Below, in pieces: positions 21,716 through 30,078 of a DNA stretch of 64,000 nt. The position numbers and the translations under genes were made by a program. The DNA comes from Pseudomonas aegrilactucae (GTDB lineage Bacteria > Pseudomonadota > Gammaproteobacteria > Pseudomonadales > Pseudomonadaceae): positions 1-64,000 of the forward strand of contig NZ_JAHTBI010000011.1 in NCBI RefSeq assembly GCF_019168305.1. The letters are read 5' to 3'. The notes under the pieces are model-generated. The model made no database searches. It worked only from the letters and a program-made list of their open reading frames with translations, and was not told the DNA's origin. Position 1 is the first letter of the stretch. Each line of letters opens with the position of its first letter.

Positions 21716-22609
21716 TTACAGCCCCGCCGCCTTCAGCCGCGCCGCATGCTCAGTGAACAACCTCACCGGCTGTGCGCCTTTGCCTACCGCCCCGAGCGAC
21801 TGGTTGACGATGTCCAGGTGGTCGAGCGGGTAGTCGTCACCGATCACCTGGCCCAGGTGCGAGCTGAAACGCCCGACCATGCCGTCGCACTGGCCAGGCT
21901 CACGCACGAAGGTGCGGGCGAACAACCGGCAGAAGCGGTTGCTGCCATCGAAGCGGTTGCGCCCGCTGTCGGTGATGCCCGGCTGCAAGGTGCCGGACCA
22001 GGAGTAATAGCGCACACCGTTGACCTCGGCCGGGCCCTCGCCGCCCCAGGTCAGTGGCAGGCCCTGTGGATAACGCTGGTTGAAGCGCGCCACGCCCTCG
22101 AAGGTCAGCGCCTGGTGCGAAGCGTGCACATCGATCGGCAGGCCAGCGCCGCGCCAGCCGGTCTCCAGCCAGCCCATCAGCCGCGCCAGGCCATGCAGCA
22201 GCACCTTGAGCAGACGCCCGCGAACAGAGTGACCAGGCGCGTGCTTTTCCAGGTAGTCGGCCAGTTCCGAGCCGTGGTTGGGGCCGGCGATGGAGGTGAC
22301 CGAGGCCACCCATTCCGGGCGTTTGGCCGCCGCATAGCGGGCGGTCAGTGCGCCCTGGCTGTGGCCGATCAGGTTGACCTTGTCGGCGCCGGTGGTGCGC
22401 CGCAGGTGTTCGATGATGCGCAGCAACTGCTCGCCGCGTACCTCGTCGCCGTGAAGGGGCGATACCTGCACCGGGAACACCGTGGCGCCGCCACGGCGCA
22501 GGGCCCCGACGATGCCGAACCAGTAGGGGTACAGCAGCAGGCGCACGAAACCGAGCATGCCCGGCACCAGTACCAGTGGATAACGCGTTGCAAGCGCTTG
22601 CGACGACAT
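21716..22609 (-). CDS. Triacylglycerol lipase/esterase, family I type, no signal peptide
   Basis: 297-residue alpha/beta hydrolase. The oxyanion block VLVPGMLGF (residues 13-21), nucleophile Ser84 in IGHSQGA, probable acid Asp242 in CDGMV and His264 in YPLDHLD match Pseudomonas family I lipases. Two cysteines around the RLFARTFVREPGQC stretch are placed like the disulfide of those lipases. Secreted relatives have a signal peptide and need a foldase; here the protein starts MSSQALATRYPLV with neither, and no foldase gene is adjacent. It may therefore be intracellular. Confidence 0.85.
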   Translation of the reverse strand: MSSQALATRYPLVLVPGMLGFVRLLLYPYWFGIVGALRRGGATVFPVQVSPLHGDEVRGEQLLRIIEHLRRTTGADKVNLIGHSQGALTARYAAAKRPEWVASVTSIAGPNHGSELADYLEKHAPGHSVRGRLLKVLLHGLARLMGWLETGWRGAGLPIDVHASHQALTFEGVARFNQRYPQGLPLTWGGEGPAEVNGVRYYSWSGTLQPGITDSGRNRFDGSNRFCRLFARTFVREPGQCDGMVGRFSSHLGQVIGDDYPLDHLDIVNQSLGAVGKGAQPVRLFTEHAARLKAAGL

Positions 22610-27156: not shown

Positions 27157-28266
27157 ATGCCAGACCTTCGTACCGCACAGCCTGAACTCCCTGCCCTGCT
27201 CGACAGTGCCCAGCAGCACTTCGCCCAGCGCATCGTGCCGCTCTGGCAAGGCCCGGGCTGGAACGCAGACATGGCGCTGCCGTTCGAAGCCCTCGACGCA
27301 CAGCACCAGCCCCTGCCGGTGCAGCGCTACCGCGCGATGGCCTGCGCGCGCCAGCTGTACCTGTTCAGCAGCCGCATCGAGCAGCCCGGCGCCGCCGAGC
27401 GCGCTGGCGCCCTGCTGCGCACCCTGCAACGTCACTTCCACGATGCCGAGCACGGTGGCTGGTTCTACAGCATCGACGCCCAGGGCAAGCCGCTGGACCG
27501 TACCAAGGATCTGTATACCCACGCCTTCATCGTGTTCGCCTGCGCGCATTACTGGGGCAAGGTGAACGAGCCGATGGTCGAGTCGACCTTGAATGCCGCC
27601 CTCGAAGTGGTACTGGAACGCTTTGCCACTGACGATGGGCTGTACCAGGCCAGCCTGGCCGAAGACTGGTCTAGCCTGGGTAGCGGGCCGTTGCAGAATC
27701 CGCTGATGCACCTGGCCGAAGCCTTCCTCGCAACCCTGGCGGTACGTCACGACACGCAAGTGCAGCAAGCGCTGCTGAACCTCACCGAGGCCCTGCAGGC
27801 ACGCTTCATCGACCCCACGCACGGGGTCATGCTGGAAAAACCGCGCGAGGCTGTGGATAACTGGTTCGAACCGGGGCACCAGTTCGAGTGGTTCTACCTG
27901 CTGGAGTCTTCACCGCTGCTGCGTGGCAGCGCGCTGCACGGCTCGCTGAGCCGGGCGTTCGGCTATGCCGAGCAGTGCGGTGTAAAAGACGGCGCGGTAC
28001 TGGCGATGCTCAATGTCGATGGCAGCGTGCGCGATGCCACCCAGCGCATCTGGGCCCAGGCCGAATACCTGCGTGCACTGGCCTTGCGGTCCGACAGCGC
28101 GGGCAAGGTGCTGGCGCAGTTGCAGGCCTTGCAGCAGAACTTTTTGCATGCCGGTGGCTGGCATGAATGCCGCGACGCCAGCGGCGCGGTGAGCCGGCAC
28201 GATATGCCGTCGACCACGCCGTATCATCTGGCGACGTGCCTGGAAGGGTTGCAGCGCGCCCTCTGA
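27157..28266 (+). CDS. AGE-family sugar isomerase/epimerase (YihS/mannose isomerase-like)
   Basis: 369 residues with the (alpha/alpha)6 barrel pattern of N-acylglucosamine 2-epimerase relatives. Recognisable are GWFYSIDAQGKPLDRTKDLYTHAF (the catalytic H-x-F region near residue 120), HLAEAFLAT, FEPGHQFEWFYLL (His near residue 235) and RIWAQAEYLRA. These enzymes isomerise mannose, fructose, glucose or sulfoquinovose. The start 27157 (MPDL) gives the usual length; 27121 is also in frame and would overlap the REP flank. No sugar gene is adjacent to fix the substrate. Confidence 0.8.
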   Translation: MPDLRTAQPELPALLDSAQQHFAQRIVPLWQGPGWNADMALPFEALDAQHQPLPVQRYRAMACARQLYLFSSRIEQPGAAERAGALLRTLQRHFHDAEHGGWFYSIDAQGKPLDRTKDLYTHAFIVFACAHYWGKVNEPMVESTLNAALEVVLERFATDDGLYQASLAEDWSSLGSGPLQNPLMHLAEAFLATLAVRHDTQVQQALLNLTEALQARFIDPTHGVMLEKPREAVDNWFEPGHQFEWFYLLESSPLLRGSALHGSLSRAFGYAEQCGVKDGAVLAMLNVDGSVRDATQRIWAQAEYLRALALRSDSAGKVLAQLQALQQNFLHAGGWHECRDASGAVSRHDMPSTTPYHLATCLEGLQRAL

Positions 28267-29389: not shown

Positions 29390-30049
29390 CGAAATCTCCT
29401 TGGGAAACAGTGGAACGACAAGGTTTGCAGCATGCCCCGCCGGCCATCTGGGCAGCAAGCCGAATATCAACTGTACAAAAAACGAACAAACCTTGGAAAC
29501 CCTTGCTGCACAAGGCCCCGCACAAGCTGTGCGCATCTTATCCACAGGCCTTTGCACACAGACTGGGGGCAACTGTACAACGCTGGAAGCCACGACTTTC
29601 GTGGGTCGCAGCCGGCTTTTGCAAGTATTTAGCTTGACCTGGGACGGGTCACTTGAGCAACGGCGCCGGACAGGTCGATAAAGGATAACTTCGGTGATGG
29701 CCAGAGGCCTTGAACTACGGCCCCTGCGCCACTCTTTCCAAGGCTTGCCCACAGACTTATCCACAGGCCTTGATGCGCCTTGACCAGGGAAATGACGCCC
29801 CGATAAAAGCCTTGACAAATAACCTTGCAGGCGTCAGAAAAACCACTGATCAAAAAACGAACAACAGCCTGGAAGCCTTATGATACGTGGCCTGCAGCGA
29901 GGTACTACCAAGTTACCCACAGTCACCTCCACACGAAACGGGGACAACTCCAAACCCCGTGAAAACAAGCGCTTGGAGCGACGTTGTGTCGCGCCACTTG
30001 CACAGGTTCAAATAACTTTTCCACAATGTCCAAGCGGCCTGCACGCACA
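29390..30049. promoter_or_regulatory. DnaA-box-rich intergenic region with direct repeats
   Basis: A 705-base gap without a supported gene. It holds perfect DnaA boxes TTATCCACA at 29538-29546 and 29757-29765, TTTTCCACA at 30017-30025, and one-mismatch sites TTACCCACA (29913-29921) and CTTTGCACA (29550-29558), all in the same orientation. The first two lie in an identical 16-base repeat (29537-29552, 29756-29771). A second 14-base repeat CAAAAAACGAACAA occurs at 29476 and 29851. The SDR promoter must also be here. A DnaA-titrating or DnaA-reactivating site is a possible role. Confidence 0.6.
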
Positions 30050-30078
30050 CAAAGAAAGACCCCGGCAAGCCGAGGTCC
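30050..30078 (-). terminator. Terminator of the liv operon
   Basis: On the minus strand, stem GACCTCGGC / GCCGGGGTC with a TT loop is followed by TTTCTTT. It lies about 17 bases after the livF stop. Confidence 0.75.

Follow-up and report, generated by a model that had tools for sequence, protein, structure and literature searches.

The non-coding region between an SDR gene and livF in the window, a 64,000-nucleotide stretch of Pseudomonas aegrilactucae DNA, contains a series of DnaA boxes and Fis-like sites that, judged from its sequence, is called here a DARS-related, Fis-coupled DnaA-regulating array. It is very probably a DnaA-regulating site of some kind. The more specific reading, that this is a cis-acting array of DARS-type modules whose main activity would be the reactivation of DnaA, is preferred tentatively and held at a little under even confidence. 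The binding of DnaA, the binding of Fis and the direction of any effect are predicted. The conserved boxes and their spacing, the DARS geometry, the module family, the Fis offset in outgroups and the nearness to dnaA all count for the array, the loci in related genomes not being independent of one another. Counting against it are a box I with three mismatches, Fis sites in the window that are one base off the published consensus and the lack of a good IHF site.

Control of DnaA outside the origin has been described in detail in E. coli, and clusters of DnaA boxes are reported from B. subtilis and S. coelicolor (PMC5742627). No description of a DARS or datA site in Pseudomonas was found in the open-access literature, most subscription journals lying outside that search.

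Boxes and modules between the SDR gene and livF

The intergenic region is 705 bp long and non-coding. Both flanking genes are on the minus strand, with the SDR start codon at 29389-29387 and the livF stop codon at 30097-30095. The first-pass annotation had described three exact and two one-mismatch copies of the DnaA box TTWTNCACA in non-coding DNA, all in one orientation and two of them within a 16-base repeat. All five boxes were found at the positions it gave, on the plus strand and between the two genes (Table 1), and the repeat proved to be exact (29537-29552 = 29756-29771). A second repeat of 28 bases, with 82% identity (29462/29837), marks the two modules.

The annotation had also argued that such a cluster was improbable by chance. 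An excess is indeed seen on shuffling: TTWTNCACA occurs 5 times in the window against 1.3 expected, a number reached in 1 of 100 shuffles, and TTATCCACA with at most one mismatch occurs 12 times against 3.8 expected, with none of 100 shuffles containing as many. The assumed frequency of one box per 130 kb was too low, however, as TTWTNCACA is present 210 times in the 5.70 Mb genome compared with 67 times for the reversed pattern, many of the copies being on the dnaA contig. Because the motif is commoner genome-wide than assumed, the argument from chance is weaker than it first appeared. On the sequence evidence the boxes are nevertheless real, since it is the recurrence of the boxes and their spacing across the genus that decides the matter, and chance boxes, which were considered, are ruled out by that conservation and spacing.

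A module spans about 110 bp and consists of a Fis-consensus site, 50 bp, box III, 12 bp, box II, 14 bp and an inverted box I. Module A was found by a scan for the E. coli DARS arrangement with looser limits. Module B was read directly from the sequence because its box II exceeds the limit of that scan. The published Fis consensus is GnnYAnnnnnTRnnC (PMC4245941), and other places in the region also fit the loose Fis consensuses.

Table 1. Parts of the liv array in window coordinates. Scores are those of the module model R2; R2 and the element model R1 were built from sequences including the window or near-identical copies, so that both match the window by construction.
Feature	Positions	Strand	Remarks
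Module A: Fis-like site, spacer and box triplet of DARS geometry	29469..29577	+	R2 65.5 bits
Module A candidate Fis-consensus site GTACAAAAAACGAAC	29473..29487	.	Fits relaxed consensus GNNYRNNNNNYRNNC; one mismatch to published consensus
Module A DnaA box III TTATCCACA (first box of the annotation)	29538..29546	+	Exact
Module A DnaA box II CTTTGCACA	29550..29558	+	1 mismatch; 12 bp after III
Module A inverted box I position TTGCCCCCA	29564..29572	-	3 mismatches; 14 bp after II
Possible degenerate middle module lacking a Fis site and box I	29704..29772	+	R2 15.5 bits (model positions 30-98), within background (best 16.4 bits), so that the evidence for it is the box pair and where that pair lies
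Weak box TTGCCCACA	29745..29753	+	2 mismatches; 12 bp before box 2
DnaA box 2 TTATCCACA	29757..29765	+	Exact; invariant in 28-sequence alignment (sequences chosen on box 2)
Weak IHF-like site AAAAGCCTTGACA	29805..29817	+	2 mismatches to TAAnnnnTTGATW; 108 bp before module B box III
Module B	29845..29952	+	R2 73.4 bits
Module B candidate Fis-consensus site GATCAAAAAACGAAC	29848..29862	.	Fits relaxed consensus; one mismatch to published consensus
Module B DnaA box III TTACCCACA	29913..29921	+	1 mismatch
Module B box II position ACCTCCACA	29925..29933	+	3 mismatches; core TCCACA conserved
Module B inverted box I position TTGTCCCCG	29939..29947	-	3 mismatches
Conserved inverted repeat GCGACGTTGTGTCGC	29978..29992	.	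Between module B and box 4
DnaA box 4 TTTTCCACA	30017..30025	+	Exact; invariant in 28-sequence alignment (sequences chosen on box 4)

The best IHF site between boxes 2 and 3 (29766-29912) has two mismatches. Beyond box 3, AAACAAGCGCTTG at 29963 differs by one base from the looser IHF consensus WATCAANNNNTTR and by two from WATCAANNNNTTA. Additionally, a TTGACAA block at 29812-29818 is conserved. It resembles a -35 box, but a promoter reading was rejected, as inspection by eye showed no -10 box conserved at the usual spacing.

Two further exact copies of TTATCCACA lie on the minus strand at 27852-27860 and 22065-22073, in apparent coding DNA. The second of these coincides with an R2 match at background level (16.6 bits) in probable coding DNA. 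A box on the opposite strand, about 1.3-1.7 kb from box 1, is also present in several relatives.

Conservation and the module family

The intergenic DNA matches 20 of the 38 genomes searched (its own included), all from one genus, with the boxes in register. A DNA match is absent in 5 of 24 relatives of the same genus, and the liv array is therefore not universal. The pattern formed by boxes 2 and 4, TTATCCACA-N240-262-TTTTCCACA, occurs in 246 of 398 genomes of the genus and is missing in its exact form from the other 152; the reversed control gave four matching rows (G112, G156, G222 and G309). Thirty loci with this pattern were fetched, and 29 are flanked by the SDR gene and livF. The exception, L032, is flanked by neither and is an unrelated pattern match. 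It was left out of the profile together with L018 (42 of 44 sequences used) and out of alignment A1 together with L051 (28 of 30 loci used), and the L034 row was excluded from one alignment at the module stage. Boxes 2 and 4 do not vary in the 28 sequences aligned, which were chosen on these boxes; between the two lie conserved blocks, while other stretches drift. The annotation had proposed such an alignment as a check, and its expectation is borne out across the genus, where boxes and spacing are kept while other parts drift.

Searching named genomes with another pattern gave at least 120 stretches and, among the matches listed, 80 loci, of which 75 bear Pseudomonas in their titles. In 67 of the 80 listed loci, box 4 begins 258-260 bp downstream of the start of box 2. 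The distance from box 1 to box 2 falls into two classes, 217-220 bp (42 loci) and 206-209 bp (23 loci), which account for 65 of these 67 loci and differ by about 10 bp, or about one helical turn. Both the SDR gene and livF are present on 67 of the 80 listed loci, and in 64 of those 67 box 2 lies between them with a gap of less than 3 kb. The element persists despite a larger gap in the other three, which separates it from livF in L231 and L279 and from the SDR gene in L252. The intervening ORFs were read in L231 and L252, where they are long and occupy the gap; L279 was assessed by distances. Loci with genes in between disfavour a further candidate, that the element is part of an SDR promoter or of a livF terminator.

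The candidate Fis sites are also maintained. In the named-genome scan, the relaxed Fis consensus is found at III-65 in 74 of 74 distinct module A sequences and 72 of 75 module B sequences. The published consensus is present there in 21 of 74 and 16 of 75, respectively, and with at most one mismatch in 72 of 74 and 72 of 75. Box I of module A is strongly conserved (GGGGGCAA in 42 profile sequences), its main variants being TTGCCCCCA in 42 and TTGCCCCCG in 21 of 74 distinct sequences. For module B, box I is TTGTCCCCG in 38, TTGTCCCCA in 20 and something else in 17 of 75 distinct sequences, and box III is TTACCCACA in 43 and TTATTCACA in 29 of 75 relatives. Box I in the relatives has 3-4 mismatches in 71 of 74 cases for module A and 2-3 mismatches in 75 of 75 for module B. 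In module B, the sequences of box III and box I differ jointly from one sub-clade to another (A1 columns 185-187 and 210-212), possibly through one shared event.

The annotation had presented the locus as a cluster outside oriC. The array is indeed present, but rather than being one isolated cluster it is a member of a multi-copy module family. R1 matches 179 of 198 genomes of the bacterial family, and its module part matches several times in many of them. With R2, each of 11 Pseudomonas genomes has between 6 and 14 module copies, the window's own having 11. Strong module matches reach 78.7 bits, and the best score in 300 kb of control Pseudomonas DNA, partly very rich in TTATCCACA, is 16.4 bits, which indicates that strong R2 matches are not made by single boxes. 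Selection for at most six box mismatches in total and a Fis site gave 42 distinct Pseudomonas modules. Box I has 0-2 mismatches in 36 of these and 3-4 in the five liv modules among them; counted among non-liv modules, it lies within 0-2 mismatches in 36 of 37. The anchors of one set of modules were likewise chosen partly by the presence of a Fis site. Such sets are excluded as evidence for Fis because the selection used it, the other sets having been anchored without it. No strong peak of IHF sites at a fixed offset was seen among the other Pseudomonas modules.

A head-to-head core, TTATCCACA-N6-GTGGATAA, is present in 59 of 59 genomes of the genus, at one listed place per genome except in G055, which has two, and the reversed control gave none. 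The canonical core lies between genes for an FKBP-type isomerase and a DUF1232 protein in the two loci whose genes were read (with Pfam for L066), and a Fis site precedes it by 51 bp (L063; other loci by eye). Its module layout is that of the liv modules, but boxes II and I are exact in most copies. Canonical-core loci are L063-L074, and L140 (G000:C108:10753) is that of the window's own genome. The largest R2 group in this genome comprises four modules in tandem (G000:C63:4033-4643, L368), near an ORF that by eye resembles a glycine betaine demethylase subunit.

Beyond Pseudomonas, R2 has matches at an E-value of 1e-4 in 128 of 274 gammaproteobacterial genomes (a count that includes the window's own), and the listed matches exceed the 16.4-bit background. 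In 115 of the 274 the exact DARS core pattern is present, the reversed control giving none among the matches listed. Outgroup loci were chosen by the core alone; 30 were fetched, and the core was usable in 29. In 12 of these 29 loci the relaxed Fis consensus is placed exactly at III-66, compared with 2 at the next best offset; the published consensus is found there in 9 of 29, and in 22 of 29 when one mismatch is allowed. With a fixed distance between Fis site and core seen across the Gammaproteobacteria, Fis control of DnaA reactivation would seem to predate E. coli DARS2. No description of such a fixed distance outside DARS2, or of multi-copy arrays, was found in the open-access literature. 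According to a passage in a review, DARS-like sequences are conserved in many proteobacteria (PMC10380432). In a sample of the phylum, R2 matches 30 of 150 genomes, 17 of them within the class or nearer and 13 outside it, several of the 13 by the core only. Several of the ten outgroup loci with flanking ORFs listed adjoin priA, metG, clpB or aroE (by eye), not oriC. An IHF consensus with at most one mismatch is found at III-98, beyond the Fis site, in 11 of the 29 outgroup loci (L201-L230), and the order of IHF and Fis is swapped relative to E. coli DARS2.

Comparison with E. coli sites and chromosomal position

The DARS sites of E. coli were reportedly discovered by Fujimitsu in 2009. In both DARS1 (bioD-uvrB) and DARS2, taken here from MG1655, boxes III, II and inverted I are spaced at 12 and 14 bp, which is identical to the arrangement in the window. 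R2 aligns with DARS1 in register from the spacer on (model positions 23-109) at 16.3 bits, a background-level score that falls below those of control DNA (16.4 bits) and of probable coding DNA in the window (16.6 bits), so that it is not evidence of homology and the link to the E. coli DARS rests on geometry. DARS1 differs in that the alignment begins only after the Fis part, in that its box strengths are reversed, box III usually being strong and box II weak in the Pseudomonas modules, and in that box I of the liv array is off consensus. DARS2 (near mutH) resembles the array in its core geometry, its use of Fis, its several further boxes and its length of a few hundred bp. However, DARS2 has IHF-like sites nearer the core and the Fis consensus beyond them, whereas at liv the Fis site is 50 bp from the core and there is no good IHF site. 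R2 matches neither DARS2 nor datA. The head-to-head boxes I and II are reported to be essential in the E. coli DARS (PMC10380432).

In 8 of 8 complete genomes used, dnaA and the liv element are separated by 0.58-0.74 Mb, or 9.3-15.5% of the genome. Two complete genomes, G012 and G014, were left out because they are among the five relatives with no match to the intergenic DNA; both hold module arrays according to R2. In the window's own assembly, dnaA is on contig C1 and the element on C11. An identification of the element as oriC was rejected, as it is not next to dnaA, being on another contig here and 0.58-0.74 Mb away in the eight complete genomes. Among the non-canonical module loci of the eight genomes, 38 of 43 are no more than 1 Mb from dnaA, where a uniform distribution would give 14.4; the binomial figure for this comparison is too strong, the genomes being related by descent. 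Module loci near dnaA are mostly 0.3-1.0 Mb away and are found on both arms in each of the eight genomes. The canonical core is 24-31% of the genome from dnaA in the same number of genomes.

Copies of TTATCCACA are very dense around dnaA on contig C1 of the window's own genome (L351-L358), with 38 copies in 0-100 kb and none in 100-160 kb. The dnaA gene is at 28.8-30.3 kb of this contig, and one copy lies inside it. In G015, 23 copies are found in the 60 kb adjoining dnaA (0-40 kb and 5800-5820 kb). A region with a high density of such motifs near oriC has been reported in E. coli (PMC12371093). An apparent strand polarity of the boxes in G015 was discarded as a listing artefact, since 355-365 kb holds two copies on the plus strand and five on the minus strand.

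The likeness to datA gives rise to the principal alternative, in which ATP-DnaA would be loaded head to tail onto boxes of one direction and the pool of free ATP-DnaA would fall shortly after duplication of the locus, box I having been given up. This reading has an appreciable probability but is doubtful. The three exact and two one-mismatch boxes share one direction, as do the boxes of datA, and box I is off consensus. Specifically, box 2 is preceded at 12 bp by a weak box, as box 2 of datA is by a weak TTGTAAACA, presumably the box 7 of that site, and another box stands at +156, compared with +162 in datA. The position of the array relative to dnaA also encompasses that of datA, which is 10.1% of the chromosome from the origin (oriC annotated at 3925744). 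Against these likenesses, datA needs an IHF site and has a perfect consensus between boxes 2 and 3, whereas the best IHF-like site of the liv array in that interval has two mismatches; the two candidate Fis sites have no counterpart in the description of datA used here; and the layout is common to modules with a DARS core.

The annotation's comparison with DARS and datA thus holds for the core geometry, the Fis-consensus sites and the datA-like run and position of the boxes, but neither definition is found in full. The sequence has the III-II-inverted I spacing of DARS and a Fis consensus at a fixed distance, as in DARS2; it does not have a box I near consensus, both modules in the window having three mismatches. 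From datA it has boxes in the same direction, with a weak box beside box 2, and nearness to oriC, and not the IHF site between boxes 2 and 3. Box I, for all its strong conservation, departs from the consensus, so that the locus is not filed as DARS, and with one defining feature of DARS (box I) and one of datA (IHF) missing, it is filed under neither.

Proposed function and remaining alternatives

The kinship with the module family and the Fis sites favour a reactivating role of the DARS type, which is the reading preferred here, while the changed box I, the direction of the boxes and the position favour titration or inactivation. If the array is reactivating, DnaA would assemble on the strong boxes III and 2 and reach their weak neighbours cooperatively. 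Fis, which in E. coli is abundant during fast growth, would bend the DNA 50 bp away and thereby gate the assembly of DnaA. Contact at boxes II and I would then promote the release of ADP from DnaA, as at the E. coli DARS sites. In this manner the array would raise ATP-DnaA according to growth phase and gene dosage and, jointly with its 4 or 5 sister loci on the two arms, would help to set the timing of initiation.

In a broader proposal, some ten DARS-type modules gated by Fis would form a two-armed constellation that controls initiation in Pseudomonas. They would occupy 5 or 6 loci, for the most part 0.3-1.0 Mb from oriC, and their copy number relative to oriC would report the progress of the forks. 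The liv locus would be a member turned from reactivating to titrating by the change in box I, and a Fis site 50 bp from the core would be the ancestral gammaproteobacterial form, Fis having been lost in E. coli DARS1. Taken jointly, these claims are speculative, and somewhat more apt to fail than to hold. A set of DARS-like modules that is conserved, multi-copy, Fis-coupled and of fixed layout near the origin would in itself amount to a second, more elaborate system of DnaA control.

Control of transcription, in which the SDR gene or the liv genes would be regulated through the DnaA and Fis sites, is improbable. The element lies upstream of the SDR start codon, and DnaA is reported to act as a transcription factor (PMC8203912). 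However, the modules and boxes extend over about 560 bp, the module adjoins unrelated genes at other loci, and the element is kept when genes intervene on either side.

A structured or small RNA, or a functionless repeat, is highly improbable: despite a conserved inverted repeat, a partly palindromic spacer and a hairpin sequence at 30058-30077, there is no Rfam match at gathering thresholds, RNAalifold predicts 17 pairs of which 2 have any compensatory change (-8.0 kcal/mol over 302 columns), the spacer palindrome pairs at 52.1% compared with 54.4% for shuffles, though better than slid versions, and the copies diverge yet keep their motif spacing, unlike a recently mobile repeat. In the alignment, none of the five predicted pairs of the inverted repeat GCGACGTTGTGTCGC changes on both sides. 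This repeat may be a site for another dimeric protein.
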